From contig JAFGDP010000117.1 in NCBI GenBank assembly GCA_016932075.1, positions 1 through 34,558 of the forward strand: 34,558 bases of DNA, in the 5' to 3' direction. A program made the position numbers and the translations under genes. The stretch's first letter is position 1. The number at the start of each line of letters is the position of its first letter. Below the pieces are notes generated by a model. The model saw nothing but the letters and a program-made list of their open reading frames with translations. It was not told where the DNA came from and did no database searches. Positions 241 to 28,353 of this stretch are shown here, piece by piece. This DNA is from Chitinispirillaceae bacterium (lineage in GTDB: Bacteria > Fibrobacterota > Chitinivibrionia > Chitinivibrionales > Chitinispirillaceae).

Positions 241-1743
241 ATGAACAAACGACAAACTACCATGGCTGGAATCTGTTGTGTGTGTGTCCTGCTTCTTGCT
301 GCTTTTTCCGCGAGTGCAGGAAGGACGATCGTCGTTCCCCGCGACTTTCCCACTATTCATGCAGCGCTTGGTGAAACCGATGCCGGCGATACCGTTTTTG
401 TCAGCAAGGGAAGGTACGCCGAGAACATCGCTTTGGTCGACAACGTTGCTCTTATAGGTGAAGATATGCTTACGACCATCATTGATGGCCGGCGTGTCGC
501 ACCCTGCGTGATCGGCGCCGATGGAGCGGTGGTCAGGGGTTTCACCATTATAAATGGCCAGACGGGCGTGCTCTGCAAGAACACCCGTCCCACCATTGAA
601 AGGAATTTTATTGTTGACAACAAAGGGGCGGGCATTCATGCCCTCATCGCACTGCCGGATATTAACAATAATGTCATCTATCGTAACGAATGGACCGGAA
701 TCTTTCTTGAATCAGCCCGAAGCACGAGGACGTCGATTGACCATAACGTGATTCTCGAAAACGGGTATTGCGGAATCTTCTGTGCGCACCGTACCGAAGT
801 CCTTGTCCGCAATAATATCCTCATAGCAAACAAACAGTATGGTATTTTCGTCGCCCCGGAATCACATAAGACGCGTATTATCCACAACAATATGTGGAGA
901 AACCGGCTTCCCTACAACGGCGATGCAGTCATGCAGCCGAACAATATGCAGAAGCCGCCCAATTTCATCTCCGCAGGACACCCTGAGTACAACTATTTCA
1001 TCAAGCCGGTATCCGCCTGCAAGGGCAAAGGGGAGAATGGCACCGACATCGGACTCATCTCGGAACAGATGGTTGTTGCGATGGCCACTGACGCCGATGG
1101 TGACGGAATCCCCGACGAAATGGACCAGTGTGCTGATGTGCCGGAAGACAAGGATAATTTCGAAGACCAGGACGGCTGCCCGGACTATGACAATGACAAG
1201 GACGGGATATACGATTCTCAGGATCAGTGTCCTGACCAGCCCGAAGACCGCGACGGTTTCCAGGATCTCGACGGCTGCCCGGACCCTGACAATGATAAAG
1301 ACGGTATTCCGGACGCATCCGACAATTGCCCGAACCAGCCCGAAACGTACAATAATTTCAAGGACAGTGACGGCTGCCCGGACGAAGAGCCTAAGGAGAT
1401 CAAACAGACACTAACCCTCCACGGGGTGAATTTCAAAACCGCCTCGGCCGAATTGCTGGAAGAGTCATACTTTGTCCTTGAGAAAGTATTCAACAGCCTT
1501 GAGGCGTTTCCGAACGTTAGGGTCGAAATAGCAGGTCACACCGATAGCGAGGGCGGCGACAGTTATAATTTGGCGCTCTCAAACGATCGCGCAACCTCGG
1601 TCATGAATTATTTGATAAGCCGTGGAATCAGTGCGGACCGCCTGCGGGCGAAAGGGTATGGCGAAACCCGACCGATAGCTTCCAATAATACGGCTGAAGG
1701 AAGGGCGAAAAATCGACGGGTGGAAGTGATCCCGATTAAATAA
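241..1743 (+). CDS. OmpA-family outer-membrane/peptidoglycan anchor with beta-helix and TSP3 repeats
   Basis: A 500-residue exported protein with three visible parts. Residues 1-26 are a signal peptide (hydrophobic core LLLAAFSASA, then GRTIVV). Residues about 30-270 look like a right-handed parallel beta-helix of the NosD/pectate-lyase type, with recurring 'NNxI..N..GI' turns. Residues about 282-385 hold thrombospondin type-3 calcium-binding repeats with DADGDGIPD, DNDKDGI and DGCPD motifs. Residues about 388-500 are an OmpA C-terminal domain, including HTDSEG, LSNDRA, GYGETRP and NRRVE; the Asp and Arg are those that bind diaminopimelate in the family. It should anchor an envelope structure to peptidoglycan while exposing a beta-helix that could bind carbohydrate. 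It lies 25 nt before the barrel-TPR gene and probably belongs to the same transcript. A beta-helix fused to TSP3-OmpA is an unusual architecture. The function of the beta-helix is not known. Confidence 0.9.
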   Translation: MNKRQTTMAGICCVCVLLLAAFSASAGRTIVVPRDFPTIHAALGETDAGDTVFVSKGRYAENIALVDNVALIGEDMLTTIIDGRRVAPCVIGADGAVVRGFTIINGQTGVLCKNTRPTIERNFIVDNKGAGIHALIALPDINNNVIYRNEWTGIFLESARSTRTSIDHNVILENGYCGIFCAHRTEVLVRNNILIANKQYGIFVAPESHKTRIIHNNMWRNRLPYNGDAVMQPNNMQKPPNFISAGHPEYNYFIKPVSACKGKGENGTDIGLISEQMVVAMATDADGDGIPDEMDQCADVPEDKDNFEDQDGCPDYDNDKDGIYDSQDQCPDQPEDRDGFQDLDGCPDPDNDKDGIPDASDNCPNQPETYNNFKDSDGCPDEEPKEIKQTLTLHGVNFKTASAELLEESYFVLEKVFNSLEAFPNVRVEIAGHTDSEGGDSYNLALSNDRATSVMNYLISRGISADRLRAKGYGETRPIASNNTAEGRAKNRRVEVIPIK

Positions 1744-1768
1744 TACTTCTTCGAAAAAAGGTTGGTGT

Positions 1769-4195
1769 ATGGCGACAACGATTTTGAAGGTTAAGCATTC
1801 GTCGGTGAAAGCATTTTGTATATGTATAGGGGTATGGGCAATGCTGCTTTCGGGGGCGCAGGACGTTTTTGCGGCGGGTGACGGTGGGTATGCCGCTCCC
1901 TATTTCCAGGCCGATTTTATCCAGACACTCTCCGAATGGCACTCGCCGCTCGTGAATCCGGCGCTGCTCTATCGTGTCAACCAGAAGCACTGGGATTTCG
2001 GCTGGTATCAATATGCGATCGCAGAAGAGGGGCTTGGGTATCAGCAGATGAGCCTTCTATGGCCCTATTACCGCAATCATACCTTCGGCGGAACATTACT
2101 ATGGAATTCCAGCGGAATCGACGGCGTTCGCATCGACGGGACGCCCACGGGTTTGCGTTACTATTTCATGGATTTCTGGTTTATCTTCCATTACAGCTGG
2201 AGAATCATTCCTGCGGTTTCGATTGGCGCCAATTTGAAATTGCGGTATGAAGACCAGTTCAATATCAAGGAGGGATTCAGCACGGTCCCGGGGATTGACA
2301 TCGGCGTTTACTGGAACCCGATCGACCATTATCGGTACGGCGATCTTGGCGTAAGCGTGAATGTGCAGGATATCGTACCCACCCAGATCAACTGGGGTGA
2401 TGAGGCGGCTACTCCGGATTTCGAAAACGAGATGGTGGTCAACCGTGCGCGTGTTGGCGTGCGTTATGCCGCGCTGAATGATAATCTGGTTTGGGACGGC
2501 GAGTTGGTGCTTGATAACGCGCTGAGGGACCTTATCGGGGCGATTTCCGATAGCTATATGAATATGGCCAAAGCACTTGATTCGCTGGGCAATCTTGACG
2601 GCGTATTTCCCATTACTCCCCGTTTCGGTTCGCACTTCAAGATCATGTTCATCTACCAGGTCTGGCTCAAGTGCGGGCTGGCAAACACCTATACCCCGTA
2701 CCTCGGCTTTAATTACAACCTGATTTACCTCCTGCCCGAAATGATCAACTATGTTAATCTCGATTTTCATATGGGTTACAACTTCCTCGACCGTGCCGGC
2801 ACGGTCCGCGATGACCGCGGATTTACCCTTATGACAAAGATCGGCACCGACTTCGGTCAGACGCGCGAACAGTTTCTCTCCAAGAAGCTGTATGACAAAC
2901 TTATTCTTGCGCCTATGGATGCCTACAACGAGGCCATGCGTCTGTATCTCGCAGGCAAATACTGGGAGGCGGGTTTTGCATTTGGGAAGGTCCTCTCGCT
3001 GTTTCCCAATTTTCATCTGAACGATAAAGCTACCTGGTATCTGGGCGATTCCTACACAAAACTTTATATGAATGATATCGCCCGCGAAGTGTTCAAGGAA
3101 GCGCTGGAGGAGTATACTACTTCCGAAATGCGTTCAAAATATATTTACGGTCTTGAGCGCCTTGATTACCGTGAAGGCAACTACGACGACGCGCTCAAGA
3201 ATCATGCGTTCATTATCAATCTTTATCCGGAAAGCGAAATCCGTGCCGATGCCGATTATCTGGCCGGCGAAATACAGTTTCTGCGAAAGAACTACAATGT
3301 CGCTGAACAGCTGTTTACCGGAATCAAGCCTGGTGATCCTTCGTATCTTTATGCCCAGTATACGCTCGCCATCATTAATGTTGAAAACAACAAAGAGCAA
3401 ACCGCAATCCAGTGTCTTACCAGTATTATTAAGGACAGTACCCAGGAGTCATCCGACCAGCTCCTGCAGGATGCTGCGAATCTCAAGCTGGGGCACGTGT
3501 ACTATGAAAGCGGAGACAAGCTCCGTCAGGCGGTGGAAGCGTACCAGCGCGTACCCGACGGGTCGCCATTCCAGGATGAAGCATTGCTTGCTACTGCGTG
3601 GTCCTGGATGAAGGTCAACCGTCCTGCGGAAGCGGTGCAGGCGGTAGAGCATCTTATTTTCAACCATCCGGAATCGCCGCTGGTGCCGGAAGCGTACCTC
3701 GTCAAAGGGTATGCGCTGATGCTGCTCAAGCGTAATGCCGAGGCGGTCAATACCCTTGAGCAGTGTTTGAATGCGTGCAAACAAGATTTCGTGACTGCCG
3801 AGGCGCTAGAAAAGCGGAAGGCCAAGTTCGAGGAATATGTAACGAAATTTTCGCCCACGTCGGGGAAGATTAAAAAGAATGCATTGCGAAAACCGACCAA
3901 TAAAACATTGGAGGAACGCCCGGAACTGGAGAAGGAGTTCCAGAAATACGCCAAGGAGTCTAAAGCCTTTTTCGTTTATACGCTGCTTGCCAAGTCGCAT
4001 AGCCGGTTCTTTATGCGCAAGGATGAAGTCGTGACCGATGCCGAATACGCGCTGGCAAAGGCAACGGCAATGATGAAAGCCAAAGACGTGATTTCAGGGC
4101 AGAAAAAGGCTGATGAGCAGGAGCAAAAAATCAAGGACGAAGAGGAAAAGCTCAAGCGAGAGCTGGAAGAGCTTGAAAAACAAGAACAGGAATAA
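1769..4195 (+). CDS. Outer-membrane beta-barrel fused to periplasmic TPR domain
   Basis: An 808-residue protein with a signal peptide (about residues 1-35, ending near DVFAA). Residues about 40-375 alternate aromatic and polar residues in short strands rich in Tyr, Trp and Gly, typical of an outer-membrane barrel of the PorV/FadL-like sort. Residues about 380-690 form tetratricopeptide repeats (for example AMRLYLAGKYWEAGFAFGKV and DALKNHAFIINLYPES). The last 35 residues are a highly charged Glu/Lys coiled coil. The ATG follows AAGG at good spacing. It sits between the OmpA gene and the giant TPR gene. A barrel joined to TPRs would place a protein-binding solenoid in the periplasm tied to the outer membrane, a plausible docking site for the 1238-residue TPR neighbour. 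The barrel assignment is by sequence texture, not by a recognised family signature. Confidence 0.8.
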   Translation: MATTILKVKHSSVKAFCICIGVWAMLLSGAQDVFAAGDGGYAAPYFQADFIQTLSEWHSPLVNPALLYRVNQKHWDFGWYQYAIAEEGLGYQQMSLLWPYYRNHTFGGTLLWNSSGIDGVRIDGTPTGLRYYFMDFWFIFHYSWRIIPAVSIGANLKLRYEDQFNIKEGFSTVPGIDIGVYWNPIDHYRYGDLGVSVNVQDIVPTQINWGDEAATPDFENEMVVNRARVGVRYAALNDNLVWDGELVLDNALRDLIGAISDSYMNMAKALDSLGNLDGVFPITPRFGSHFKIMFIYQVWLKCGLANTYTPYLGFNYNLIYLLPEMINYVNLDFHMGYNFLDRAGTVRDDRGFTLMTKIGTDFGQTREQFLSKKLYDKLILAPMDAYNEAMRLYLAGKYWEAGFAFGKVLSLFPNFHLNDKATWYLGDSYTKLYMNDIAREVFKEALEEYTTSEMRSKYIYGLERLDYREGNYDDALKNHAFIINLYPESEIRADADYLAGEIQFLRKNYNVAEQLFTGIKPGDPSYLYAQYTLAIINVENNKEQTAIQCLTSIIKDSTQESSDQLLQDAANLKLGHVYYESGDKLRQAVEAYQRVPDGSPFQDEALLATAWSWMKVNRPAEAVQAVEHLIFNHPESPLVPEAYLVKGYALMLLKRNAEAVNTLEQCLNACKQDFVTAEALEKRKAKFEEYVTKFSPTSGKIKKNALRKPTNKTLEERPELEKEFQKYAKESKAFFVYTLLAKSHSRFFMRKDEVVTDAEYALAKATAMMKAKDVISGQKKADEQEQKIKDEEEKLKRELEELEKQEQE

Positions 4196-4243
4196 CGCCA
4201 TATACCGTTCATGAAATAGTCTGCTACCAAGGAGAAGTGTTCA

Positions 4244-7200
4244 ATGCAGAAGATGAACCGCACATTAGTCATACTATTAACCGTTTTATTCGCGGCCGTA
4301 ACCGTAGCTCCGGTTACTACCTACGCGGCAAAAAGAGATGACGAGCGCAAAAGGAAAATCGAGCAGAAACTCAAGGAACTGGAGGAGAAAAAGCAGAAGT
4401 TGCGCGAAAGGGCGATTAAAGATGTGGAAAAGAACCGGATAAGCGGAAAAAGCCTTGACGAAGTCATTAACCGATGGGAAAAGCTGCTCGACAACTGCGA
4501 GTCGGGCAAAAAATCTCTCCGGTGCGCGGATGCGATGTATAATCTCGGCAGCCTGTATTATGAAAAATCGCGTGATGAGTTTATCAAAGCGCGTGAAGCT
4601 TACGAAAGGGCCATGGATGAGTATGAGAAAAATCCGAGCGGTCCGGAACCGGTAAATCCATTGCCGGATTATGCGAAATCACTTGCCATGTATGAGTCGC
4701 TGGCCCGTGATTACCCGGAGTTCAACAAAGTCAGCGAAGCGTATTATCAAATGGGTAATATTTATCTCCTTATGGGGGATATTGACGGCTGCAAGAAGGT
4801 GTTTACGAAAATCGTCGATGATTTTCCGCAGAGTCCGCGGGCCTCAATGGCGCATTTCAAGCTTTCCGATCTCTGTTATCTCGACCATAACACCACCTGC
4901 GCGATCAAGCACTTGGAAAAGGTGAAGGAAAAGGAGGTGGATCTCCAGACATGGGAAATGGTGCACTACCGTAAGGGCGAGGTGTATTACAACAGGGGTG
5001 ATTTCGATAAGGCAATTGATCTTTTCTTTACCTATATTGAACGGTGCGATAACGGCATGTACAAAAAGCGCGAATTCAGGGAGATGGCGCTTGAATTCAT
5101 GGCGATAAGTTTTTCGGACATGCCCAACGGCGCCGAAGAGGCCATACGGTATTTCAACCGTCACGGTCATAAACCGTATGAAGCGCAGGTAATGTATACG
5201 ATCGGGATGAAAAACCGGATTCACGGCCAGTGGGAAGATGCGATAAAGTCGCTCACCACGACCCTGAATAAATATCCCTACTATAAAGATGCTCCATTGG
5301 CGCGTCAGATGCTTATTGAATGCTTTGTAGTAAAGAAGGACTACGAAAAAGCCAACAAGGAGCGGGTGCGGCTGGTTGACGATTACGGTCCCGGCAGCAA
5401 GTGGTATTCAAAAAACCAGGGCGAGAAGGCGGTAATAGAGCAGTCACGCAACGAAATCAAGAAAGCGATCGGTTCAATCGCCATTTACTACCACGCTCTT
5501 GCGCAGAAAAAGAAGGACAAATCTCTTTTCGAGAAGGCGCTTAAGCGGTATCAGGAATTTTTCAAGGAGTTTCCTGATGATATGTGGCGGACGTATGAAT
5601 ATGAATACAATGTCGCGGAAATTTACAACGCCCTCGGCGATTGCGAAAAGGCGGCTGAATACTATGAGCGTGTTGCGGAAAAGGACATTTCCAAATTTCC
5701 TGAATACAAGGCCGAAATCGACACGCTCGGCATGGATCAGGATGAAGTTGAAAAATTGAGGAAAAAGTCTGATAAGGGACCGATCTTGATTTCTCAAGAG
5801 GATGCCGGATATAACGTCATCGTTGCGCTTGATGTCTGTCGCAAGAAATCAATCGCGCGAAAGGGTATTACCGAGGAAAAAGCGTACCTGCTTCCGGAGA
5901 CCCGTAAGCTTCTTGATTATGCAGAAAAATATCACACCCGGTTTCCGAAAAGCTCGAACGCCCCCGAGGTGCTGTATCTGGCCGGTAACATCCACTATTC
6001 CGCCAAACAGTATGACAATGCAATTCGTGTGTTCAAGCAGATATCCGAAAGCTACCCTTCAAGCAAAATGGCCGACAAGGGCCTGCGGATGCTTGCCAAC
6101 AGCTATTCGAGCATGGGCCAATTCGAGCAGGCCATGAGCATGTACCGGCTCCTGATCGAAAAGCAGAAACCTAATTCGCCTGAACAGATGGAAGTCATTG
6201 ATCTCGCCGCGGGTGCGATGTACAAGCGGGCAGAGTCAATCGAGAAAAAAGGCGATAAGCTCCTTGCGGCTGAGGCGTACCAGAAAATTTCCGAGCAGTT
6301 TCCCACGAGCAAGGTTGCTGACCGTGGATGGTTCCAGGCTGGTGTATGTTTTGAAAAAATGAAAAACTACGACAAGGCTGCGGAGCTTTTTGAGGGCCTG
6401 CCAAGTAAATTTCCGAAATCGACGCTTCGGGAAAAGGCGTTTCTTCGTGCCGCCGATAATTATAAAACCTTGAAAAATTACGAGCGGGCTGCTCAGGTGT
6501 ACCAGACCGGCGCGAATACGGTCACCCGCGCCGAGTTCGCCATTCCGAGCCTCTCTTCAGCTTCAGAATGTTTCCAGAAGCTGGAACAGTTCGAAATGGC
6601 CGGCAAGATGTTCGAAATAATCTATGAGCGGTACTCAAATGATCCTAAGACGCCGCAGGCGCTGTATAATGCCGGACTCATGTTTGAAAAAGGGAAGCTG
6701 TATTCGAATGCCATAAACGTCTATTTCACCTTGTCAAAACGGTTTCCGGAATCGGAATACGCGGCAGAGGCGTTCTTCTCTGTGGGGCTTTGTTATGAAA
6801 AAATGGGCCAGTACGGCGATATGGCCTCGGTATTTGCCGAATATGCCCAGAAGTTCTCTGCTGACCGATATAAGCAGGTGCAGGCGCGTGTTAAAGCGGG
6901 TAACGCCTACCTGAATATGGGTAATTTTAATGAGGCTGAAAAGAATTATCTCATGGCGGTGAGCGTCTATGAGAAATTCCATAAGAGCAGCGATATGGAT
7001 GTAGGAAACGTGGCTGAAGCGTATTATAAAATAGGGGAGATTTATTTCAAGAAATTCAGCCAGATAAAACTGGAAGCCAAAAACGTACGGCAGATGAGGG
7101 ATAAGGTAAAAGAAAAGACCAAGGTGCTTGAGGAGTCGGCTAAAAATTACGCAAAGGCAATAGAAATAGGAGTTGAGGAGTGGACCATTAAGGCGACCTA

Positions 7201-7960
7201 TATGATAGGTCAAGGTTTCGTCGATATGGCTGAGGCGGTGTCGAACCAGACCCTTTTTGGCAGTGCCGAACAGCGAATCGGTTCAAAAGTCAAAATTCTC
7301 TCGAGCCTCGACAAGTACTACCAGAAAGCGCAGGAATATTTTTATAAAAATATTGAATGGGCGCACAACCAGGATATCGGTGGCGAGTATGTTGATAAAT
7401 CCATTGACAAATTCATGGAGATGCTGTTCCGCAAGGGCGATATCATGGAGGAGGTCGGTCGTATCCTGAAAAACGCTCCTCTGCCCAAGGGATTATCCCC
7501 TGAAGAGCAAGAGGCGTATCGTCAGGTGCTCGAGGAGAAATGGCTTGAGGCTATTGATGCTGCGCTTCCACGCTATGAAGAAGCGGTGCGGGCCGCAAAG
7601 GATCTGGGAATCGCCCAAAACCAGTGGCTTGACCGGATCAAGGAACGGATCACGGAGATTAATCCCAATTCAGAGGTTTTGGCTTTTGAGATAAAGCAAT
7701 GGGAGCCGAAGCCGAAACCGGTTCAAGAACAAGCGGGCTCCGAGGATGCGGTCGGTTCTGGTGAGGAGAGGGATATATCCGCTTCGTATTCCGACCTTGA
7801 CCCTCAAACCGGACGGGAAATGCAAAGGATTCAAAATATTATGAATATGGAGATTCCGGCGTCGGATAAGATCAAGCAGCTCAATAGGATAGAAATGGAA
7901 GCGCGCCGGAATATCGAGCTTGAAGAAGGCAGAATACGGGAATTAAAAGAGAAATTGTAA
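4244..7960 (+). CDS. Giant periplasmic TPR scaffold protein
   Basis: A 1238-residue exported protein. Residues 1-29 are a signal peptide ending in TTYAA. A charged coiled coil (residues about 30-65, Lys/Glu-rich) follows, then a long array of tetratricopeptide repeats through residue about 930. Typical units include YYQMGNIYLLMGDIDGCKKVF, LYLAGNIHYSAKQYDNAIRV and AFFSVGLCYEKMGQYGDMA. The C-terminal third is helical and charged, ending in a coiled coil. A clear AAGGAG lies ahead of the ATG. TPR solenoids bind other proteins; length and export suggest a periplasm-spanning scaffold between the preceding barrel-TPR protein and the downstream ExbB/ExbD motor. This resembles in kind the TPR components of the Myxococcus Glt machine, but I cannot show orthology. 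No enzymatic motif is visible. Confidence 0.85.
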   Translation: MQKMNRTLVILLTVLFAAVTVAPVTTYAAKRDDERKRKIEQKLKELEEKKQKLRERAIKDVEKNRISGKSLDEVINRWEKLLDNCESGKKSLRCADAMYNLGSLYYEKSRDEFIKAREAYERAMDEYEKNPSGPEPVNPLPDYAKSLAMYESLARDYPEFNKVSEAYYQMGNIYLLMGDIDGCKKVFTKIVDDFPQSPRASMAHFKLSDLCYLDHNTTCAIKHLEKVKEKEVDLQTWEMVHYRKGEVYYNRGDFDKAIDLFFTYIERCDNGMYKKREFREMALEFMAISFSDMPNGAEEAIRYFNRHGHKPYEAQVMYTIGMKNRIHGQWEDAIKSLTTTLNKYPYYKDAPLARQMLIECFVVKKDYEKANKERVRLVDDYGPGSKWYSKNQGEKAVIEQSRNEIKKAIGSIAIYYHALAQKKKDKSLFEKALKRYQEFFKEFPDDMWRTYEYEYNVAEIYNALGDCEKAAEYYERVAEKDISKFPEYKAEIDTLGMDQDEVEKLRKKSDKGPILISQEDAGYNVIVALDVCRKKSIARKGITEEKAYLLPETRKLLDYAEKYHTRFPKSSNAPEVLYLAGNIHYSAKQYDNAIRVFKQISESYPSSKMADKGLRMLANSYSSMGQFEQAMSMYRLLIEKQKPNSPEQMEVIDLAAGAMYKRAESIEKKGDKLLAAEAYQKISEQFPTSKVADRGWFQAGVCFEKMKNYDKAAELFEGLPSKFPKSTLREKAFLRAADNYKTLKNYERAAQVYQTGANTVTRAEFAIPSLSSASECFQKLEQFEMAGKMFEIIYERYSNDPKTPQALYNAGLMFEKGKLYSNAINVYFTLSKRFPESEYAAEAFFSVGLCYEKMGQYGDMASVFAEYAQKFSADRYKQVQARVKAGNAYLNMGNFNEAEKNYLMAVSVYEKFHKSSDMDVGNVAEAYYKIGEIYFKKFSQIKLEAKNVRQMRDKVKEKTKVLEESAKNYAKAIEIGVEEWTIKATYMIGQGFVDMAEAVSNQTLFGSAEQRIGSKVKILSSLDKYYQKAQEYFYKNIEWAHNQDIGGEYVDKSIDKFMEMLFRKGDIMEEVGRILKNAPLPKGLSPEEQEAYRQVLEEKWLEAIDAALPRYEEAVRAAKDLGIAQNQWLDRIKERITEINPNSEVLAFEIKQWEPKPKPVQEQAGSEDAVGSGEERDISASYSDLDPQTGREMQRIQNIMNMEIPASDKIKQLNRIEMEARRNIELEEGRIRELKEKL

Positions 7961-8016
7961 AAAGAACCAAGACATTTCTTTCACAATATAGGGGAGGAAA
8001 GGAGTAGCCCTATGTA

Positions 8017-8103
8017 ATGGAAGAGAGACAAGAAAAAGCTTTTAGTTTGAAATTAACGGAAACTATATTTAGTTATTACATCAACCCTATATACATTTTG
8101 TGA
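8017..8103 (+). CDS. Possible 28-residue small protein or leader peptide before the ExbB-type gene
   Basis: An ATG at 8017 opens 28 codons with a charged N-terminus (MEERQEK) and a hydrophobic, aromatic C-terminus (IFSYYINPIYIL). The TGA at 8101-8103 touches the GAGGAGG ribosome site of the next gene, a geometry that allows translational coupling. A strong AAGGAG (7999-8004) lies 12 nt upstream. The same AAGGAG is better placed (7 nt) for an ATG at 8012 that is immediately followed by TAA, a start-stop minimal ORF. Either reading may be chance in AT-rich DNA; I see no family match. Confidence 0.25.
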   Translation: MEERQEKAFSLKLTETIFSYYINPIYIL

Positions 8104-8116
8104 GGAGGTTTTTATT

Positions 8117-8743
8117 ATGCAGATGTTCAATTTTCTTCTTCTCGGTTTTCAGTCCTCTGCATGGCTTATTATGTGGATCCTGCTGTTCGTTGCTTTTTTC
8201 GGTTTGGGTTTGTTTATTGAGCGGTTCTATTACCTGTTTCTCAAATGTGACTGGGGAACCAGTTCTTTCATGAGTACCATTTCAAAATATATAAAAGCCG
8301 GAGATTTTGAGCGTGCGTCCAAATATGCCAGCACCGTTAACACCCCTCTTGCCAAGGGTGTGCTCAGCGTTCTCATGAACAGGACCAAGGGGCCGAAGGC
8401 CATTAAGAAGTCCGTTGACGAGGTTTTTCTTTCTGAGGGTCCGCGTATCAAACGTAACGTTTTCCTCTTGAATACCTTTGCCAACCTCGCAACGCTGATC
8501 GGTCTGACCGGTACGATTTACGGCACGATGGAATGTTTTGACGCCATCGCCAATGCCCCGGCGGCACAGCGTGCACAGCAGCTTGCTGCAGGTATTTCGA
8601 TCACCATGTCAGCGACGCTGATGGGGCTTTTAGTCGCGGTACCGTGCATTCTTGCGCATGGGATTCTCAGCGGAAAGGCCGACAAGATTGTGGAAGATAT
8701 GGACGAGAAGACCACGAAGCTTATTAATGCCGTTGAGGACTGA
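8117..8743 (+). CDS. MotA/TolQ/ExbB-type proton channel subunit
   Basis: A 208-residue inner-membrane protein with the family's three-helix layout: TM1 about residues 14-36, a cytoplasmic stretch of about 80 residues (GDFERASKYA), TM2 about 116-136 (LIGLTGTIYGTMECFDAIA) and TM3 about 161-183 (TMSATLMGLLVAVPCILAH). The TLIGLTGTIYG and ATLMGLLVAVP segments are the hallmark pore-lining motifs with conserved Thr. In this family a pentamer surrounds an ExbD/TolR dimer and converts proton flow into mechanical work. Two ExbD-type genes follow directly, a TolQ-TolR-TolR-like order matching AglR-AglQ-AglS. Start supported by GAGGAGG. The cytoplasmic loop lacks the extra domains of MotA. Confidence 0.93.
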   Translation: MQMFNFLLLGFQSSAWLIMWILLFVAFFGLGLFIERFYYLFLKCDWGTSSFMSTISKYIKAGDFERASKYASTVNTPLAKGVLSVLMNRTKGPKAIKKSVDEVFLSEGPRIKRNVFLLNTFANLATLIGLTGTIYGTMECFDAIANAPAAQRAQQLAAGISITMSATLMGLLVAVPCILAHGILSGKADKIVEDMDEKTTKLINAVED

Positions 8744-8863
8744 ACATTTCCACAATTCATTGAATGAGAATTAGAGAGTTTGGGACATCTTTCAAGAGGA
8801 GTGGAGCATATAAAATAGTTGTAATGAAATGGAAAATTATAACGTTTTATTAGCGAGTGCTTC

Positions 8864-8892
8864 TTAACCTTTTAGAGGAAGTAACGTATACT
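8864..8892 (+). promoter_or_regulatory. Candidate internal promoter before first ExbD-type gene
   Basis: TTAACC (8864-8869) and TATACT (8887-8892) are separated by 17 nt. A start about 7 nt downstream would give a leader of only about 10 nt before the ATG at 8910, which has only a weak CAGGA as ribosome site. It lies in the 166-nt gap after the channel gene. Confidence 0.35.
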
Positions 8893-8909
8893 TCAACAGG
8901 ATTACTACT

Positions 8910-9725
8910 ATGGGACAAATGCCTCGTTCAAAAATGATAGATGATGAAGGTGGACATGATCTGGCCATTGATCTGAAGCCGTTCATTAATTACCTGGTGG
9001 TGCTTATCCCGGTGTTAATGCTTTCGGCAGAATTTGCCAAAATATCGATAATTAATCTCCATCTGCCGGAAGGACGGGGTTCCCAAACCGCAGATCAGAT
9101 ACGGCAGCGGCCGCTCGACACTGAGGAGGACAAGCTCCTCCTCACTATGATTATTACCGACTCGGTCGTGACCATCGGAGCAAAAAACGGATTCCTGCCC
9201 TCGTTGTTTTACAAAGAGTTCCATCATTATGTTTCTGCTGAAGACCGGAGGGTGGAGGTGACCGTTGAGTATGATCCAAAGAATCCGGAGAAACCGGTTA
9301 CCAATCCAAAGACCGGAAAACCCTTTAACCTGAGTGAGCGTTCAGACATTTATTTATATGTAGCTGATGAAAATTACCAGTTGCAGAAATGTCTCTATAC
9401 GAGCGATGCGCTCATGCTCACCGATGCCGATGGAAAGCCCGTTACATCGGTTCAGGTTGGGGACACCGTGTGGCTCGTCACGAATCCGCGGCGTCAGGTC
9501 ATCATATCTGATCCATCACTTTATTCCTTAAAGCCGCTCATGGCATATGATGAGATGAAAAACCGGCTTATGAAAATCAAAGACCGGTATCGGGATGCTC
9601 GTGATGCGGAAGATATTATCATCGCGGCGGAAAACCAGGTGGCATATGACAAAATAGTCCAACTCATGGATGTTGCCAGAACGGCAGATTTTCCGAATAT
9701 TTCAATCGCAAAACTCAGGGGTTAA
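8910..9725 (+). CDS. ExbD/TolR-like protein with an insertion and Asn at the proton-carrying site
   Basis: A 271-residue bitopic protein, about twice the usual ExbD length of roughly 140. Residues 18-46 match the ExbD transmembrane motif (IDLKPFINYLVVLIPVLM, aligned to IxVTPLVDVxLVLLxIFM), followed by NLHLPEG, the usual strand after the helix. At the position of the essential Asp there is Asn27 (codon AAT), so this subunit should not carry protons by the normal route. The family's periplasmic domain appears to resume near residues 232-271 (AYDKIVQLMDVARTADFPNISIAKLRG style). Residues about 95-205 look like an insertion with beta-rich character. An Asp21 sits just before the helix and could be a surrogate. 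The second ExbD gene starts 3 nt after its stop, so the two are surely co-expressed. Start chosen at the first ATG; ATG codons for Met4 and Met9 are alternatives. Confidence 0.85.
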   Translation: MGQMPRSKMIDDEGGHDLAIDLKPFINYLVVLIPVLMLSAEFAKISIINLHLPEGRGSQTADQIRQRPLDTEEDKLLLTMIITDSVVTIGAKNGFLPSLFYKEFHHYVSAEDRRVEVTVEYDPKNPEKPVTNPKTGKPFNLSERSDIYLYVADENYQLQKCLYTSDALMLTDADGKPVTSVQVGDTVWLVTNPRRQVIISDPSLYSLKPLMAYDEMKNRLMKIKDRYRDARDAEDIIIAAENQVAYDKIVQLMDVARTADFPNISIAKLRG

Positions 9726-9727
9726 CT

Positions 9728-10234
9728 ATGGCAATTCAGAGAGGCAGAAACAAGTTCGCTACGCCAAAGTCAACGGGGCTGATCATCACGTCTCTTATCG
9801 ACTTCTTTACGATCGTGGTGATCTACCTGATGAAAAGCTATTCTGCGGAAGGCAGCATAATGACGAACGCCGATAACCTGGTTCTTCCCAATTCGATTTC
9901 GACAACGAAACCGAAGGAGGTCCATGTTCAGGTTGCTGCAACCAGTGACATGATCCTTATTGACAACAATCCGGTTGTGCCTACCGAAGACGTGCGCAAG
10001 ATACCGCAGGATGCTCATAATCCAGTCATTCCTCAGCTTGAGCAGAAGCTGAAGATTGCTAAAAAACTGGAAGAAGACCAGGTCAAACTGGGCGCAGCGA
10101 ACATAATAGAAGGAACGGCGACTATCCAGATAGACAAAAATGTCGAATTCGACGTTCTATACAAAGTAATGCATACCTGTGCCAGCGTAGGATACATGAA
10201 GATGAATTTCGCAGTCATGGAAAGGGAAATGTAA
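9728..10234 (+). CDS. ExbD/TolR-like stator subunit with intact Asp
   Basis: A 168-residue single-pass protein. Residues 18-36 (LIITSLIDFFTIVVIYLM) match the ExbD motif, and Asp25 sits at the proton-carrying position. LVLPNS follows, as in ExbD/TolR (usually LPxA). The periplasmic part continues with VHVQVAATSDMILIDNNPV and ends with a strand-helix pattern (ATIQIDKNVEFDVLYKVMHTCASVGY) typical of the TolR fold. The gene begins 3 nt after the first ExbD gene and ends 2 nt before the TonB-like gene, so translation is likely coupled. With its Asn-bearing neighbour it may form a heterodimer in which only one subunit has the titratable residue. A homodimer of this subunit alone is the alternative. 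Confidence 0.9.
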   Translation: MAIQRGRNKFATPKSTGLIITSLIDFFTIVVIYLMKSYSAEGSIMTNADNLVLPNSISTTKPKEVHVQVAATSDMILIDNNPVVPTEDVRKIPQDAHNPVIPQLEQKLKIAKKLEEDQVKLGAANIIEGTATIQIDKNVEFDVLYKVMHTCASVGYMKMNFAVMEREM

Positions 10235-10236
10235 CA

Positions 10237-11565
10237 GTGAAATACAAAGTACTCATCAAAAAGTGTGACGACGCTGCAAAAGCAGTCCGTATCGCCGGTG
10301 AAATAGCGAGGTGGTCCGGAAGTGCTCTTGAGACGGTACTTACGACGCTTGTTACCAAACCGATCTGCGTGCGTCAGGAAGCCGATGAGCAGGAAGCCCG
10401 GAAAATCAAGGCCCAGTTTGAGGCGGTCGGGGCGGAGGTAGTGCTCGTCGAGTTGCCCGGACCGCAGAAAGCCGCTGCTGCCGTTCCTCCTGTCGCCGCC
10501 GCCGCAGTTGGTGCAGCGGTTGCCGGTGAAGGTGAAGAAGAAGAAGAGGTCGAAGGGCGTGTGTTAAGCGATTCGGAGTATGCAGAGGTCCTCAAGAAAC
10601 GCGGCGATATTTTTGTTATTGAAAAAGAGAAACGGCTGCGTTACATCGAAATGGTGACCATGCTGCTGGGAGTCCTGTTTGGATTTTGGATAAGTACGGT
10701 AGAAGTGGTAAAGGTCGCAACCGATTTTTATCAGAAGATGCCGGAAGAACGAATAGCAAAACTCATGGATTCAAAAGAGCTCCCGCAAACGCTGCAGCAG
10801 AACAAAGACCAGGAGAAGGAAAAAGAAGAAATAAAAGCAGAAAAGACCGAAGTTAAAAAATTGAAAAAGACCAGCAAGGGGGCAGGGGGAACAACCGGAG
10901 GTGGTGGTGATCCACGGGCGCGTGTGACGCGTCAGGGCGTTCTTGGTATTATTTCCGGCCAGGTAAAGGGAAAAACCGTTGCATCCGCCGATCTTTTCGG
11001 CAAGGGGGGGTTTGCAAGCGGGATTGACGCCATACTTTCGGGCGTCGGCGGACTCAAGGCCGGTGGAGGCGGCGGTGCGGGACGTAAAGGCGCTGCAGGC
11101 ATCGGCTATGGCGCGGGATATGGAAGTGGATTCGGCGGAAGCGGCGCCGGCGGTATCGACGATCTTATCGGCGGACTCATGGGCGGAGGAGAAGGCGGAG
11201 GACTCGAGCTCAAGAAACGGGGCACGCTCAAAATTTCCGCACCGGATTTCCTCAAGGGAGGATCGCTCACCGGCGGAAGAAGCAAGGCCAGCATTATGCG
11301 GGTAGTGATGCAGAACCTTGCTGCATTGCGGTATGCGTATAACAAACGTCTCCGTGAAAAACCGGGACTTAAAGGAAAAATAACCGTTAAATTTGCGATT
11401 GATGAATTTGGCAAGGTTATTTTTTGCCAGGTCATAGAATCCACCATGTCCGATCCACCGCTTGAGCAGACCGTCGCCAATAAAATAAAACGGTGGGTCT
11501 TTGAAAAAATAGACAAGCCTGGTGATGTGACTGAAGTTATTTATCCGTTCGTATTTTCGCAGTAA
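10237..11565 (+). CDS. TonB-like transperiplasmic protein with AgmX/PglI-type C-terminal domain
   Basis: A 442-residue protein starting with GTG two nt after the ExbD stop. Residues 1-75 form a small cytoplasmic alpha/beta domain; EARKIKAQFEAVGAEVVLVE resembles the C-terminal fold of ribosomal L7/L12. An Ala/Glu-rich linker leads to one transmembrane helix (about residues 138-157). A charged Lys/Glu coil (about 185-215) and a long Gly-rich flexible region (about 216-325) should cross the periplasm. Residues about 350-442 match the AgmX/PglI C-terminal domain, TonB-like, with NLAALRYAYNKRL, LKGKITVKFAID, GKVIFCQV and a final YPFVF. In Myxococcus, AgmX/GltJ has a cytoplasmic regulatory N-terminus, one helix and such a C-terminus and works with AglRQS. 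Here the N-terminus differs: no zinc-finger cysteines and no GYF domain were seen. It is likely the protein through which the ExbB/ExbD motor acts on the outer membrane. Confidence 0.85.
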   Translation: MKYKVLIKKCDDAAKAVRIAGEIARWSGSALETVLTTLVTKPICVRQEADEQEARKIKAQFEAVGAEVVLVELPGPQKAAAAVPPVAAAAVGAAVAGEGEEEEEVEGRVLSDSEYAEVLKKRGDIFVIEKEKRLRYIEMVTMLLGVLFGFWISTVEVVKVATDFYQKMPEERIAKLMDSKELPQTLQQNKDQEKEKEEIKAEKTEVKKLKKTSKGAGGTTGGGGDPRARVTRQGVLGIISGQVKGKTVASADLFGKGGFASGIDAILSGVGGLKAGGGGGAGRKGAAGIGYGAGYGSGFGGSGAGGIDDLIGGLMGGGEGGGLELKKRGTLKISAPDFLKGGSLTGGRSKASIMRVVMQNLAALRYAYNKRLREKPGLKGKITVKFAIDEFGKVIFCQVIESTMSDPPLEQTVANKIKRWVFEKIDKPGDVTEVIYPFVFSQ

Positions 11566-11583
11566 TAAGCCGGCAAAAACTCC

Positions 11584-11612
11584 TTGCATTTTTTGGAATG
11601 ATATGCTATTAT
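11584..11612 (+). promoter_or_regulatory. Promoter of the outer-membrane barrel gene
   Basis: TTGCAT (11584-11589) and TATTAT (11607-11612) are separated by exactly 17 nt. Transcription from about 11619 would give a leader of about 94 nt before the ATG at 11713. The same TTGCAT -35 is used before the pilus cluster at 26918. Confidence 0.6.
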
Positions 11613-11712
11613 ACGTGTTGTTACCATGCGTTCAAAAAAACGGAAATGACTTGACACTCAAGGGTGGCAGTAGCCAATCACCATTAGTGCACATAGGAGG
11701 AAGGATATTATT

Positions 11713-12942
11713 ATGAAGAAGGCGGCTGTAGGTCTTTTGGTGGCGGGGTTTGTCATGAGCAGTTTTGCGACCGATGCGCGGGTCATAACCATGGGCCGGC
11801 ATGATAATTTTTTCATGGACGAAGTAAGCATTTTCAAGAATCCCGCGAATATCAATATCTATCCGAATATGGTGTATGGTTCTTATGGTGAGTATCGGCC
11901 TTCTGCTGCGGATACCGGTCAGTTTTCCGGAATGAAAGCTAGTAACCAGGACCCGATGAATCCTTTCTTCGGATCAATTGTTTCCTATTCATTAAAGCAG
12001 ACGTCGGAAAACAGAAATCAGTATCCTATGTTTTCTTTCGGCGCGCTGTTTAACCGTCATGATGAAATGCTTGATTATATTACACCAGGGAATGAAAAAT
12101 ATGCCGGCAATCCGGCTGACATCATGACCCAACCCGCGGGAAAAATAGATCTTCTTGCAGGTTATGTGCTTGAAAACGGCGCAATGCTCGGTATCGGCGG
12201 GTATCTGGCTTTTCAGAGCGAGACGGACGGGGATGTCGTCGATTATGAAACGAGCGTATACAAGGGAAACGTTGGTATCAACTGGCCTGTTGCAAAATCG
12301 ACCAACCTTGAGGTGTCCATGGGCGGTGGTATCCTGCGTGCAAAAGGTGATGATGGCGCGAATAGTAACCTTAAAAAGATAATCGCAGACAACGACTATT
12401 TCGTGCGGGGCGATATCCGGCTTTTTTCAGCGCTTGACATGATCAATGGCGATCTTGTACCACATCTTGGAGTACAGCGGGTGACCTTGTTTGATAATGA
12501 GGTCACATATACCGATGTCGCCGGAGGTATCGGGGTGAACGTCAATATCGACAAAGGGTTCTTCTGGACCGGTGTTGAAGGGATCTACCGGGATTACATC
12601 TTTGCCAGCGATTCCGCCTGCACCGGCATTGGAGGAAGGATCAGTTTTGGAATAGAGCGGAGCATCTGGTGGGACTGGTTTGTTATCCGTGTCGGAGGGC
12701 AGAAAGTACTTCTTTACTCCACAAAGGACGCGGCAGGACAAAGCACGGGCAGATGGGAGGAGAACACTCCTGCTGACGCCTCGGATAATGATCTGGTGTC
12801 ACTGGGATTCGGATTGAACGTCGAGAACCGCCTGCGTATTGATTTTGTCGCGGCGGAAGATATCGCGTATACCTTCACCAATCTGTTCAGCAAACCCATG
12901 CATCATCTTTTCACGAGGGTCAGCGCGACATACAGCTTTTAA
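11713..12942 (+). CDS. Outer-membrane beta-barrel protein, PorV-like in style
   Basis: A 409-residue exported protein. Residues 1-19 are a signal peptide (KKAAVGLLVAGFVMSSFA, cleavage near FAT-DA). The mature N-terminus reads VITMGRHDNFFMDEVSIFKNPANINIYPNMVYGSYGEY, the 'asparagine-proline-alanine' start seen in PorV/UPF0164-like barrels. Alternating strands with Tyr, Gly and Asp run to the end, and the chain finishes in a strand ending with Phe (VSATYSF), the usual barrel-assembly signal. AGGAGGAAGG precedes the ATG. It follows the TonB-like gene but has its own promoter (11584-11612) and a terminator just after (12971-13009), so it can be made in greater amount than the motor. It is a plausible outer-membrane partner of the TonB-like protein; this is inference from position. 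Confidence 0.8.
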   Translation: MKKAAVGLLVAGFVMSSFATDARVITMGRHDNFFMDEVSIFKNPANINIYPNMVYGSYGEYRPSAADTGQFSGMKASNQDPMNPFFGSIVSYSLKQTSENRNQYPMFSFGALFNRHDEMLDYITPGNEKYAGNPADIMTQPAGKIDLLAGYVLENGAMLGIGGYLAFQSETDGDVVDYETSVYKGNVGINWPVAKSTNLEVSMGGGILRAKGDDGANSNLKKIIADNDYFVRGDIRLFSALDMINGDLVPHLGVQRVTLFDNEVTYTDVAGGIGVNVNIDKGFFWTGVEGIYRDYIFASDSACTGIGGRISFGIERSIWWDWFVIRVGGQKVLLYSTKDAAGQSTGRWEENTPADASDNDLVSLGFGLNVENRLRIDFVAAEDIAYTFTNLFSKPMHHLFTRVSATYSF

Positions 12943-12970: not shown

Positions 12971-13009
12971 AAACGGGTGGTATAGTTTTTATATATCATC
13001 CGTTTTTTT
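12971..13009 (+). terminator. Intrinsic terminator after the barrel gene
   Basis: A 14-bp stem (12971-12984 with 12992-13005, two G-U pairs) closes a 7-nt loop and runs into seven T residues (13003-13009). It begins 28 nt after the barrel stop codon and is the clearest terminator in the window. Confidence 0.88.
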
Positions 13010-13175: not shown

Positions 13176-14195
13176 TTGAAAAGAACCCTGCTGATGGTCG
13201 TATGCTGTTTTCCGGGGTGCTATGGAGCAGCATCTCCTCTTCCTCACGATATGCACGAATGGGCGGTTACCGCGATTGATTGCATATACAAAGAGAATTT
13301 CAGGGGAGCCGAGGATGAGGCGCGAAAGATCGTCAGAAGATATCCTGCACATCCTGCAGGCTATTTTTTCATGGCAGCAGCCATAGACTCCTGGATGGCG
13401 ACGTATCTTACTGATCGCCGCGAGAGTGAATTTTACCGGTTCTGCGAACTGGCCGTGGAAAAGGCTGAAAAAATCCTTGAGAAAGACGACGATGATGAAT
13501 GGGCGGTCTTTTTCATGGGAGGAGCGGAGGGGTATAAAGGGACCTATGAAGCGCGCTACGAACGGTGGATAACCGCATTCAGGTACGGATGGAAGGGTGT
13601 GTCTATTTTGATGAAGCTCCAGAAACACAACAGCACCCTGGCCGACATACAATACGGCATCGGCAGCTATGAATACTGGCGCAGCGCCCTGATGAAAAGC
13701 CTGCGCTGGTTGCCCGGTGTTGACGACAAGCGCGTCGCGGGCATACAGAAGATCAATGATGCACGCATGAACGGTATCTTTACCAAGGGGGCCGCATCGG
13801 TCGGGCTTATTGACATTTATCTCAATGAAAAAAAATATGACAGCGTACTCCGGATCGCCGATGCGGCGCTACAGCGCTATCCTCATTCGCGTATATTTCT
13901 GATCGGTAAAGCCCGTGCCCTTCTGGGGCTGGACAAACCGCAGGAGGCCGCCCCGATTTTTCGCTCCGTGCTGCACCGGATACAAAAGAATCCTGTGGAT
14001 GAACATGCAAACATAGCATTGTGCCATTTCTGGATTGCCAAGGCAGCCCTTGCCAGCGGCAATTATGATGAATGCATCACGGAATGCAATCTCATGAAAA
14101 ACTACAGGTTCAATGACGACACCAAGAAATTATTGGATAAATATTTTTCTGAAGTAAAGTTTATCAAAAAAAAGGCCCTTGAACAACGGAAATAA
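13176..14195 (+). CDS. Exported TPR-repeat protein of unknown role
   Basis: A 339-residue protein read from a TTG codon preceded by GGAGA at 7-8 nt. Residues 1-18 form a short signal sequence. It ends FPGCYGAAS, which could be cut by signal peptidase I near YGA; the FPGC is only a poor lipobox, so a lipoprotein is possible but unlikely. Helical repeats of TPR type follow (EARKIVRRYPAHPAGYFFMAAA, VLRIADAALQRYPHSRIFLIGKA). The middle (residues about 110-180, rich in Tyr and Trp) is not an obvious TPR. It has its own promoter and is separated from the preceding cluster by a terminator. I do not recognise the specific family. It may serve the envelope module but nothing in the sequence proves that. 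Confidence 0.8.
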   Translation: MKRTLLMVVCCFPGCYGAASPLPHDMHEWAVTAIDCIYKENFRGAEDEARKIVRRYPAHPAGYFFMAAAIDSWMATYLTDRRESEFYRFCELAVEKAEKILEKDDDDEWAVFFMGGAEGYKGTYEARYERWITAFRYGWKGVSILMKLQKHNSTLADIQYGIGSYEYWRSALMKSLRWLPGVDDKRVAGIQKINDARMNGIFTKGAASVGLIDIYLNEKKYDSVLRIADAALQRYPHSRIFLIGKARALLGLDKPQEAAPIFRSVLHRIQKNPVDEHANIALCHFWIAKAALASGNYDECITECNLMKNYRFNDDTKKLLDKYFSEVKFIKKKALEQRK

Positions 14196-15664: not shown

Positions 15665-15693
15665 TTGATCCGTACCCCATTTCATACTATTTT
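15665..15693 (+). promoter_or_regulatory. Promoter of pyrRBC placing the start at the pyrR ATG
   Basis: TTGATC (15665-15670) and TATTTT (15688-15693) are separated by 17 nt. Only 7 nt (GATTACC) lie between the -10 and the ATG at 15701, and no ribosome site precedes that ATG. Transcription would begin at or next to the start codon, giving a leaderless message. If so, PyrR attenuation through an upstream leader is impossible here. Confidence 0.5.
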
Positions 15694-15700
15694 GATTACC

Positions 15701-16249
15701 ATGAAGCAGGTACAGCTTATCATGGACAGCCAGGCGCTAGGCCGGGCCATTACACGGATAACGCACCAGATACTTGAGCGAAACAATGACCTTTCAAAGG
15801 TCGGTGTCGTAGGCCTGCAGACGCGCGGTGTTTATCTTGCGGAACGAATAAATACCACAATCAACGAAATGGAAAAAACCGACCTGGTCCCCGGCATATT
15901 GGATGTTTCATTTTATCGCGACGACTACCACCGGGCGCTCGCCGTTCCCAAGGTCAGGACAACGGACATCCCTTTTGATACTAATGACATCAACATAATA
16001 CTGGTAGATGACGTTTTGTTCACCGGCAGGACCGTGCGCGCCGCGCTTGATGCGCTCATGGATTTCGGAAGGCCCAAGACCATTCAGCTCGCGGTGATCG
16101 TGGACCGCGGCAACCGTGAGTTGCCGATACAGCCTGATTACACCGGGACGTCGCTCAAGACCCTGCCCTATCAGGAAGTCAGTCTCAAAGTCCTGGAGCA
16201 TGACGGTGAGGATTCGATCTGGCTCATGGAAAGGGACAAGGGCGGATAA
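15701..16249 (+). CDS. pyrR: PyrR, pyrimidine operon regulator / uracil phosphoribosyltransferase
   Basis: A 182-residue type I phosphoribosyltransferase. It begins KQVQLIMDSQALGRAITRITHQI as PyrR proteins do, has VVGLQTRGVYLAERI, and carries the PRPP-binding loop IILVDDVLFTGRTVRAAL. In many bacteria PyrR binds pyr mRNA and causes attenuation when UMP is abundant, and it also converts uracil plus PRPP to UMP. The ATG at 15701 gives the family's length; an in-frame TTG at 15665 would lie inside the -35 element and is rejected. pyrB starts 6 nt after the stop. Because the promoter abuts the ATG, no leader attenuator is available. Control of the pyr genes may act elsewhere, or the protein may mainly serve uracil salvage. 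Confidence 0.94.
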   Translation: MKQVQLIMDSQALGRAITRITHQILERNNDLSKVGVVGLQTRGVYLAERINTTINEMEKTDLVPGILDVSFYRDDYHRALAVPKVRTTDIPFDTNDINIILVDDVLFTGRTVRAALDALMDFGRPKTIQLAVIVDRGNRELPIQPDYTGTSLKTLPYQEVSLKVLEHDGEDSIWLMERDKGG

Positions 16250-16255
16250 AAGGAC

Positions 16256-17182
16256 ATGGCTCTTTCAATTCAGCATCTTCTCGGCCTGGACGGCGTGTCA
16301 CGCGATGACATTGCCAGCATCCTTGATACGGCTGATTCCTTCCATGAAGTGCTGGAACGGGAAATCCCGGTCGTGCCCACGCTTCGCGGAAAAACCGTGG
16401 TCAACCTGTTTTACGAAAACAGCACCAGGACCCGCATCTCGTTCGAACTTGCTGAAAAACGGCTTTCGGCAAGTCCGATCAGTTTCTCCTCGTCAACCAG
16501 TTCGGTTGAAAAAGGTGAAACGCTCCGCGACACCATCAAGAACATCGAGGCGATGAAAATCCACATGGTCGTGGTGCGGCACAACGCCGCCGGGGTTCCA
16601 TATTTCCTGACCCAGTGCACGAACGCCGTTATCGTCAACGCGGGTGACGGTTTGCACGAACACCCGACCCAGGCGCTCCTCGACATGATGACCATACGCC
16701 GCAACCTTGGCCGGCTCGAAGGGCTCAAGGTCGCAATCGTGGGCGACATTTTCCACAGCCGCGTGGCGCGATCGAATGCGTGGGGCATGAAGACCATGGG
16801 CGTGAACGTGATCCTGTGCGGACCGCCGACACTTCTTCCACAGCACCCGGAAAGTTTGGGCGTCCCGGTCACCGACGATCTGGACGAGGCGCTGGAGGGC
16901 GCCAATGTGGTCATGCTCCTGCGGTTGCAGCTTGAGCGCCAATCAAGCGGTACGTTCCCCTCCATACGGGAATATCGGGACCGGTACGGGCTGGACCTGG
17001 ACAAGCTTGCCCGGTTGCCGTCCGATGTGCTCATCATGCATCCCGGCCCCATTAACCGCGGCATCGAGCTGGCCTCAACGGTTGCCGACGGACCGCATGC
17101 GGTCATACTTGAGCAGGTGACCTGCGGGGTTGCGGTGCGCATGGCGGTTCTCTATCTGCTCGGAGGCGGGGAAAATGAATAA
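16256..17182 (+). CDS. pyrB: Aspartate carbamoyltransferase catalytic subunit
   Basis: A 308-residue enzyme joining carbamoyl phosphate and aspartate to make carbamoyl aspartate, the committed step of pyrimidine synthesis. The carbamoyl-phosphate motif STRTRISFE (residues about 56-64) is intact, as are DGLHEHPTQALLD (the HPTQ loop) and HPGPINRGIEL near the C-terminus. Length is normal for PyrB. AAAGGA precedes the ATG, which lies 6 nt after pyrR. Its end overlaps pyrC by 8 nt. No regulatory pyrI gene is visible, consistent with a trimeric or PyrC-associated enzyme as in many bacteria. Confidence 0.97.
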   Translation: MALSIQHLLGLDGVSRDDIASILDTADSFHEVLEREIPVVPTLRGKTVVNLFYENSTRTRISFELAEKRLSASPISFSSSTSSVEKGETLRDTIKNIEAMKIHMVVVRHNAAGVPYFLTQCTNAVIVNAGDGLHEHPTQALLDMMTIRRNLGRLEGLKVAIVGDIFHSRVARSNAWGMKTMGVNVILCGPPTLLPQHPESLGVPVTDDLDEALEGANVVMLLRLQLERQSSGTFPSIREYRDRYGLDLDKLARLPSDVLIMHPGPINRGIELASTVADGPHAVILEQVTCGVAVRMAVLYLLGGGENE

Positions 17183-28310: not shown

Positions 28311-28353
28311 GCGTGCTGGGGGTACTATTTCCATTTTCAAACGAGAGTTGAAT

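Follow-up and report, generated by a model that had tools for sequence, protein, structure and literature searches.

We analysed a window of 34,558 bases (52% G+C), the whole of a stretch from contig JAFGDP010000117.1 of a Chitinispirillaceae bacterium (assembly GCA_016932075.1), in the phylum Fibrobacterota, whose members are known to break down cellulose and chitin. Positions 241 to 12942 hold eight genes, all on the + strand, encoding an OmpA-family anchor, two tetratricopeptide repeat (TPR) proteins, a TolQ-like channel, two ExbD-type proteins, a TonB-like transducer and a further outer-membrane protein. We propose, with a probability of roughly 0.6, that this operon encodes a proton-driven Fibrobacterota machine, spanning the cell envelope and resembling the core of the Agl-Glt complex of Myxococcus, which would power attachment of the cell surface to insoluble polysaccharide. 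What is new here is that the two ExbDs, judged by their sequences, seem to form an active/silent pair. A preliminary description of this DNA had reported the eight co-directional genes and read them as a possible Agl-Glt-like, self-contained and energised envelope machine whose cargo and role were undescribed. The genes are present and the Agl-Glt-like reading is partly supported by what follows, while the word undescribed has to be given up: an AglRQS-GltCDEG core with a Fibrobacteres member had already been reported (Luciano et al. 2011, PMC3169522), and the apparent counterpart of the operon in Fibrobacter succinogenes is known to be cellulose-induced and highly expressed.

Both ExbD-type proteins match PF02472, at 4e-11 and 1.7e-10; they are ExbD1 (271 aa, 8910..9725) and ExbD2 (168 aa, 9728..10234). 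The proton carrier of ExbD and TolR is an Asp located in their membrane helix. At this position, aligned with Asp25 of E. coli ExbD, ExbD1 has Asn27 (codon 8988..8990) and ExbD2 has Asp25 (codon 9800..9802). Alignment and tree point to a silent ExbD1, in which the proton carrier is replaced, and to a predicted active ExbD2. Among the window protein and the best 120 of 495 homologues of ExbD1 (n=121), the carrier position is occupied by Asn in 118, by Cys in two, by Ser in one and by Asp in none. The split recurs in every one of the four two-ExbD classes of the phylum. Counted without L023, L035 and L039, which are identical to other loci, without 13 loci overlapping others, and without some loci whose genes, lying under antisense open reading frames, escaped our crude gene calling, ExbD1 of class I, the class of the window operon, has Asn in 17 cases, Gly in six and Ser in one (non-Asp in 24/24), and ExbD2 has Asp in 24/24; Gly at the silent position comes from loci taken as Fibrobacter-like (6/6). 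The silent ExbD of class II has Asn in 14/14 and its partner Asp in 14/14; in class III, where the silent ExbD is fused to a channel subunit, the figures are Asn 4/4 and, for the separate ExbD, Asp 3/3; and in a further two-ExbD set they are Asn 3/3 and Asp 2/2. The single-ExbD systems of four genomes all keep Asp (8/8), as do E. coli TolR and ExbD.

All 44 silent ExbDs fall together in a single clade (support 98-100) in a midpoint-rooted tree of Fibrobacterota and E. coli sequences (96 of 98, two having been dropped for too many gaps), which suggests a single old duplication retained as a pair. Classes I and II have a single channel gene, so that their two ExbDs have to occupy the same pentamer or else vie for it. 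The loci of class III (L026, L030, L034 and L040) combine an ExbB-ExbD fusion, in which the ExbD part has Asn, with a TonB-like protein and a separately encoded, predicted active ExbD; L030, the sole locus checked for this by profile, has a secA-like gene downstream. A free channel gene lies next to the fusion in two of these four loci (L034 and L040), the other two starting at a contig edge, and this arrangement agrees with a ratio of one silent ExbD to five channel subunits, as in a 4+1 pentamer. We tentatively suggest, at somewhat less than even odds, that two-ExbD motors of the Agl-core type are obligate active/silent heterodimers, in which five channel subunits would hold one carrying and one non-carrying ExbD. 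A permanently non-carrying ExbD1 would make the motor naturally lopsided. If the suggestion is true, a turn would cost half as many protons as in the two-carrier 5:2 model, with steps twice as large, and pairs of the AglQ/AglS type would not be interchangeable. The homo- or heterodimer state of AglQ and AglS is called unknown in PMC9389320, another review names the AglQ proton site as essential, and other motor partners form heterologous pairs in which both members bear Asp (2025, PMC12204202). A natural pair in which one carrier is lost makes both the AglQ/AglS dimer question and the two-carrier 5:2 model testable. No mention of an ExbD pair with one lost carrier was found in the available portions of the literature searched, which comprised open-licence papers and Luciano et al. 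without its supplements. Relative to the class II ExbDs, about 110 extra residues are inserted in the periplasmic part of ExbD1.

The channel (8117..8743), of the MotA/TolQ/ExbB type and in an AglR-like position, matches PF01618 at 7.8e-23, in agreement with the preliminary description. Equivalents of T148 and T181 (E. coli ExbB numbering) are kept in 21/21 class I channels, and that of E176 in 0/21; the window channel likewise has both Thr and no E176. In a tree of 69 sequences, made of Fibrobacterota channels and a thin reference set of three from E. coli, class I forms a clade (support 100) that joins class II and the further set (support 92), apart from E. coli TolQ and ExbB and from the single-ExbD channels of the phylum; a second tree agrees as regards E. 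coli. The tolQ, tolR and exbB models give 60.1, 32.3 and 38.9 bits against cut-offs of 221, 127.3 and 206.2. On these cut-offs and on the channel trees, with their Fibrobacterota and E. coli references, an ordinary TolQR or ExbBD identity is rejected. A grouping of the channel with ordinary TolQR or ExbBD was one of two outcomes named beforehand as contrary to an Agl-Glt-like machine, and it did not occur with this Fibrobacterota and E. coli reference set. Compared with PDB sequences up to E 1, the channel matched TolQ, ExbB and one designed protein, and no AglR.

The second outcome so named was a gene order unique to this genome. Whichever class I genes a locus has, tblastn shows their strand and order unchanged in 28/28 loci, which were chosen for carrying class I genes and include two pairs (L002/L029 and L003/L025) that look like one split cluster each, and thus an operon confined to a single genome is ruled out. 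All eight genes are found in 14 of the 28, and in ten of the remaining 14 the contig or stretch itself comes to an end. Two of the others are partial class I copies: in L038 just the transducer and ExbD1 are matched, and in L072 the transducer and the ExbD pair, with no channel. One genome, G001, holds classes I, II and III together with the further two-ExbD set. A scan of viral contigs returned no relatives. Among plasmids, the search brought up one two-ExbD cluster from a gammaproteobacterium, carried by pMBL96 of Vibrio alginolyticus (NZ_CP013488.1; L128), with Ser in one ExbD and Asp in the other, as judged by eye, the Ser-bearing protein sharing the VLIP motif; three other inspected plasmid hits have one ExbD each.

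The transducer (442 aa, 10237..11565) consists of a cytosolic N-terminal domain, one transmembrane helix, a Gly-rich linker and a C-terminal domain of the AgmX/PglI-TonB type (11281..11559). This tail (myxo_SS_tail, NF033768) scores 81.6 bits against a cut-off of 40, which bears out the TonB-like protein with an AgmX/PglI C-terminus of the preliminary description, and it is above cut-off in 117/120 sampled Fibrobacterota genomes. The likeness to GltJ/AgmX drawn there holds for the tail only: the best gliding model for the whole protein is GltG/PglI (NF033760, 102 bits), not GltJ/AgmX, which gives 21.6 bits against a cut-off of 450. By Foldseek, the TonB C-terminal domain (TonB-CTD) of H. pylori ranks first for the C-terminal end (E 0.002). 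The AlphaFold model of the whole transducer is poor (mean predicted local distance difference test score, pLDDT, 62); residues 1-73 (10237..10455) have a pLDDT of about 91 and a β-α-α-β-α-β order. They resemble the C-terminal domain of L7/L12 (2zjq_5, TMt 0.82; 1ctf, 0.81; E ~0.004), in a Foldseek search of which none of the matches attains E 0.001, and the Pfam L7/L12 match lies below its cut-off (16.4 bits versus 25.9). On model and fold match, the cytosolic domain would thus be L7/L12-like; it is found in class I proteins from the Chitinispirillia side and is missing, by eye, in Fibrobacter-like ones. Given that L7/L12 domains are known to bind GTPases of translation, one may reasonably guess, though do no more than guess, at a regulatory partner in the cytosol. 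A TonB-like SxxxH motif in the first 160 residues occurs in 0/20 class I transducers, versus 13/13 of class II.

The outer parts of the operon lie on both sides of this motor. The OmpA-family anchor (500 aa, 241..1743) starts with what looks by eye like a signal peptide and carries a right-handed beta-helix (PF13229, 8.9e-16), TSP3 repeats (PF02412) and a C-terminal peptidoglycan-binding OmpA domain (PF00691, 1.6e-23), which confirms the OmpA anchor of the preliminary description. The 808-aa protein that follows (1769..4195) has a signal-peptide-like start, a strand-rich N-terminal half and a TPR solenoid from about residue 375. Described earlier as a barrel-TPR fusion, it keeps the TPR half of that name, and the barrel half stays unproven. 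Its AlphaFold model, built from five sequences and uninformative for the N-terminal half, gives residues 1-374 a pLDDT of about 20-38 with mostly strands drawn, and the TPR half mostly 70-89; in Foldseek, the 50 listed matches all belong to proteins with TPRs or other helical repeats, and a profile link between this half and the last protein of the operon was not found. A search model of the 808-aa protein matches 112/120 sampled genomes at E <= 1e-10, often over the TPR half only. Strong TPR matches extend over the giant secreted protein (1238 aa, 4244..7960), again as first described; it has 79% identity to a protein of a Chitinispirillaceae metagenome assembly and is like GltD in architecture, being large, secreted and made of TPRs. 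For GltC and GltE, the profile scan gave zero model matches at E 0.1, and whether the library holds such models was not checked. The eighth gene (409 aa, 11713..12942) encodes a secreted PopA-type outer-membrane protein, probably a barrel; the claim of a last barrel is sustained by a partial match only, of residues 1-62 to NF053618 (34.5 bits versus a cut-off of 150). Both outer-membrane proteins have near their start an 'NPA' motif, which we take to be a link to FadL/PorV barrels.

A terminator-like hairpin with a T-run, a consensus match only, lies 3' of the operon (12971..13005, + strand). The stem of the closing terminator proposed earlier is thus there, with 14 pairs, the longest of 18 such sites in the region; such sites are no more abundant than chance allows (15.6 +/- 3.8 expected). 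It is followed by a ninth gene, for a 339-aa TPR protein found by profile match (13176..14195, + strand), and a match to it also lies downstream in 9/28 class I loci.

For the biological role of the operon, a comparison can be drawn with Fibrobacter, a major degrader of rumen fibre whose adhesion mechanism is unsettled. Gene order and close masses match FSU_2397-2403 of F. succinogenes to the class I clusters of eight genomes, in some of whose loci genes were missed or cut. The published masses are 83.84 and 146.67 kDa for the TPR proteins FSU_2397 and 2398, 23.06 for the ExbB 2400, 32.44 and 18.24 for the ExbDs 2401 and 2402, and 32.45 for the TonB 2403 (PMC4619616), and those of the last six genes of L079 are 84.2, 142.6, 22.2, 32.3, 18.3 and 32.7 kDa; the counterpart of the 808-aa protein varies up to 88.8 kDa in the class I loci of the eight genomes. 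By order and size, FSU_2397 and FSU_2398 correspond to the 808-aa and giant TPR proteins, and FSU_2396, an OmpA protein of 55.97 kDa (PMC4619616), corresponds to the anchor by position. FSU_2396-2403 (2399 unlisted) are up 1.2-1.73 fold on cellulose (PMC6851124), the TonB and the two ExbDs have entries for cellulose alone in PMC4619616, and FSU_2396-2404 appear as eight highly expressed genes in the sheep rumen (PMC8092306). In the available portions of these three papers there is no mention of an Agl-type reading of the cluster, nor is such a machine mentioned in those of PMC4704652, PMC4814513 and PMC3079729. The present comparison would join an Agl-Glt core complex of unknown function with the cellulose-induced FSU_2396-2404 cluster.

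For FSU_2400-2403, cellodextrin uptake has been proposed, and on that model the channel, the ExbDs and the TonB-like protein would energise import of oligosaccharides. The cellulose induction and the authors' own proposal (PMC6851124) favour it, as do the TonB-CTD fold of the transducer end and the outer-membrane proteins in the operon. It is nevertheless unlikely: Pfam gives none of the eight proteins a match to a TonB-dependent receptor family, class I transducers have no SxxxH in their first 160 residues (0/20), and the ExbB and TolQ cut-offs are not reached. Moreover, we know of no Ton system that includes two unequal ExbDs and giant TPR proteins, which also counts against import. Alternatively, the operon could tether the outer membrane or form vesicles, a Tol-Pal-like pull or release shedding vesicles laden with enzymes. 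In outer-membrane vesicles, FSU_2396 and FSU_2397 were reported to occur in one complex, and a role in vesicle formation was suggested for the eight-gene cluster (PMC8092306); the OmpA anchor is in keeping with this. Against it, TolQ-like channels with a single ExbD exist separately in the phylum, none of the eight proteins has a Pfam match to TolB and the tolQ cut-off is missed. We hold this to be slightly less probable than import. Least probable of all is a true gliding motor moving cells along fibres as in Myxococcus, for although there are a two-ExbD motor, a GltG-like tail and TPR proteins, and a Fibrobacteres member was placed in the core-complex clade (Luciano et al., PMC3169522), the model of GltJ, which with GltA, B, F, H, I and K makes up the group A gliding genes, is far from its cut-off, the same paper holds the core alone unlikely to drive motility, and the motility of F. 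succinogenes was undemonstrated according to its 2011 genome paper.

We therefore rank surface attachment ahead of TonB-type uptake, vesicle formation and gliding, in that order. From gene content, gene order and residue states read in the sequence, from the L7/L12- and TonB-type domains assigned by model and fold match, and from the published cellulose induction and complex membership of the apparent F. succinogenes counterpart, we infer a heterodimer, a force path, a cargo and a role as follows. A channel pentamer would surround a heterodimer of the two ExbDs, and protons would flow through the single Asp of ExbD2, ExbD1 being the permanently silent partner. The movement would pass to the GltG-like transducer, with its L7/L12-like domain in the cytosol and its TonB-like end in the periplasm, and the force would then reach the TPR proteins and through them the outer-membrane proteins, the OmpA/beta-helix protein serving as the anchor to the cell wall. 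The job of the machine would be to act on a surface apparatus by which cells hold on to insoluble polysaccharide; for Fibrobacter this is cellulose, and here it would probably be chitin or cellulose.

Several observations weigh against this attachment machine. In L004 and L070 the OmpA and 808-aa genes are missing upstream of the giant TPR gene, away from any edge, and in the genomes of both loci the match to the 808-aa model is limited to residues 276-801 or so, so that these two parts may be dispensable; the N-terminal half of the 808-aa protein is a probable outer-membrane barrel only. According to PMC9389320, the conserved Asp is present in AglQ as well as in AglS, which sets them apart from the window pair. 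The channel trees mean 'not ordinary TolQ/ExbB as represented here' and not 'sister of AglR'. None of 150 genomes (relatives of G001) reaches the cut-off of 650 for the full GltG model, and the FHA domain of GltG has zero Pfam matches in the eight proteins. FSU_2397-2403 are an apparent class I counterpart, recognised by order and size and not by named sequence. The isoelectric point of the giant TPR protein is 6.5-8.4 in class I loci versus 8.5 in F. succinogenes, and the size of the OmpA protein is no test, its gene running to the stretch edge in L078 and being cut in L079 and L091. The channel FSU_2400 was also seen on glucose (4, 4 and 2 in three conditions; PMC4619616). The lack of demonstrated motility in F. 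succinogenes, given above, belongs here as well.

Elsewhere in the window, positions 15665-18512 hold phosphoribosyltransferase, aspartate/ornithine carbamoyltransferase and dihydroorotase-like genes in a row, as in a pyrimidine-type operon. A 1732-aa protein (21198-26396) combines DUF11 repeats with a partial match to glycoside hydrolase family 8, and its C-terminus, where Pfam places a type IX secretion signal domain below cut-off, is FlgD/CHU_C-like. Type II secretion/type IV pilus-like genes occupy 27069-32168 (a T2SSF protein, three proteins with N-terminal methylation motifs and a PilM-like protein).

Compared with known systems, the operon shares with ExbBD-TonB and TolQR-TolA the channel family, the ExbD family and the TonB-CTD fold, and differs from them in having two ExbDs, one of them predicted to be silent, a transducer without SxxxH and no receptor or TolB match. 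The pMBL96 cluster likewise has a channel, an ExbD of the Ser type, an Asp-bearing ExbD and an outer-membrane beta-barrel; however, the AgmX/PglI tail was not found there, and its neighbours are Ig-like-domain proteins and a transglutaminase-like cysteine peptidase. In the Agl-Nfs spore-coat machine, AglRQS works on a surface polysaccharide (PMC3858216). The class II relatives adjoin Wza-/Wzc-type polysaccharide export genes in 8/9 class II loci inspected (all but L058) and in L037, a layout that recalls Agl-Nfs. In L037 (276-17479), as in L059-L065 and L067, AglRQS-like genes and two large TPR proteins lie directly upstream of Wza/EpsE and Wzc-type genes and glycosyltransferases, whereas the window operon has no polysaccharide export gene. 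F. succinogenes FSU_2396-2404 is an eight-gene cluster of the same order, with close masses for FSU_2397-2403; the class I loci taken as Fibrobacter-like have Gly at the silent position (6/6), in contrast to Asn in the window.

The closest comparison is with the core complex itself, defined as AglRQS plus GltC, D, E and G, and reported as one region outside Deltaproteobacteria and in one Fibrobacteres member (PMC3169522). One defining feature, a full-length, FHA-bearing GltG, is missing here (102 bits versus 650), and instead of FHA the transducer has a predicted L7/L12-like domain; the predicted silent ExbD, and the beta-helix OmpA and PopA-type proteins in the operon, are further differences. 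What the two have in common is one TolQ-like channel with two TolR-like proteins in tandem, a GltG-type protein with an AgmX/PglI-TonB-like C-terminus and, by architecture, a giant secreted TPR protein resembling GltD, all encoded in one same-strand cluster, presumably an operon, outside Myxococcales. Altogether, the Fibrobacterota machine appears to work like the Agl-Glt core.

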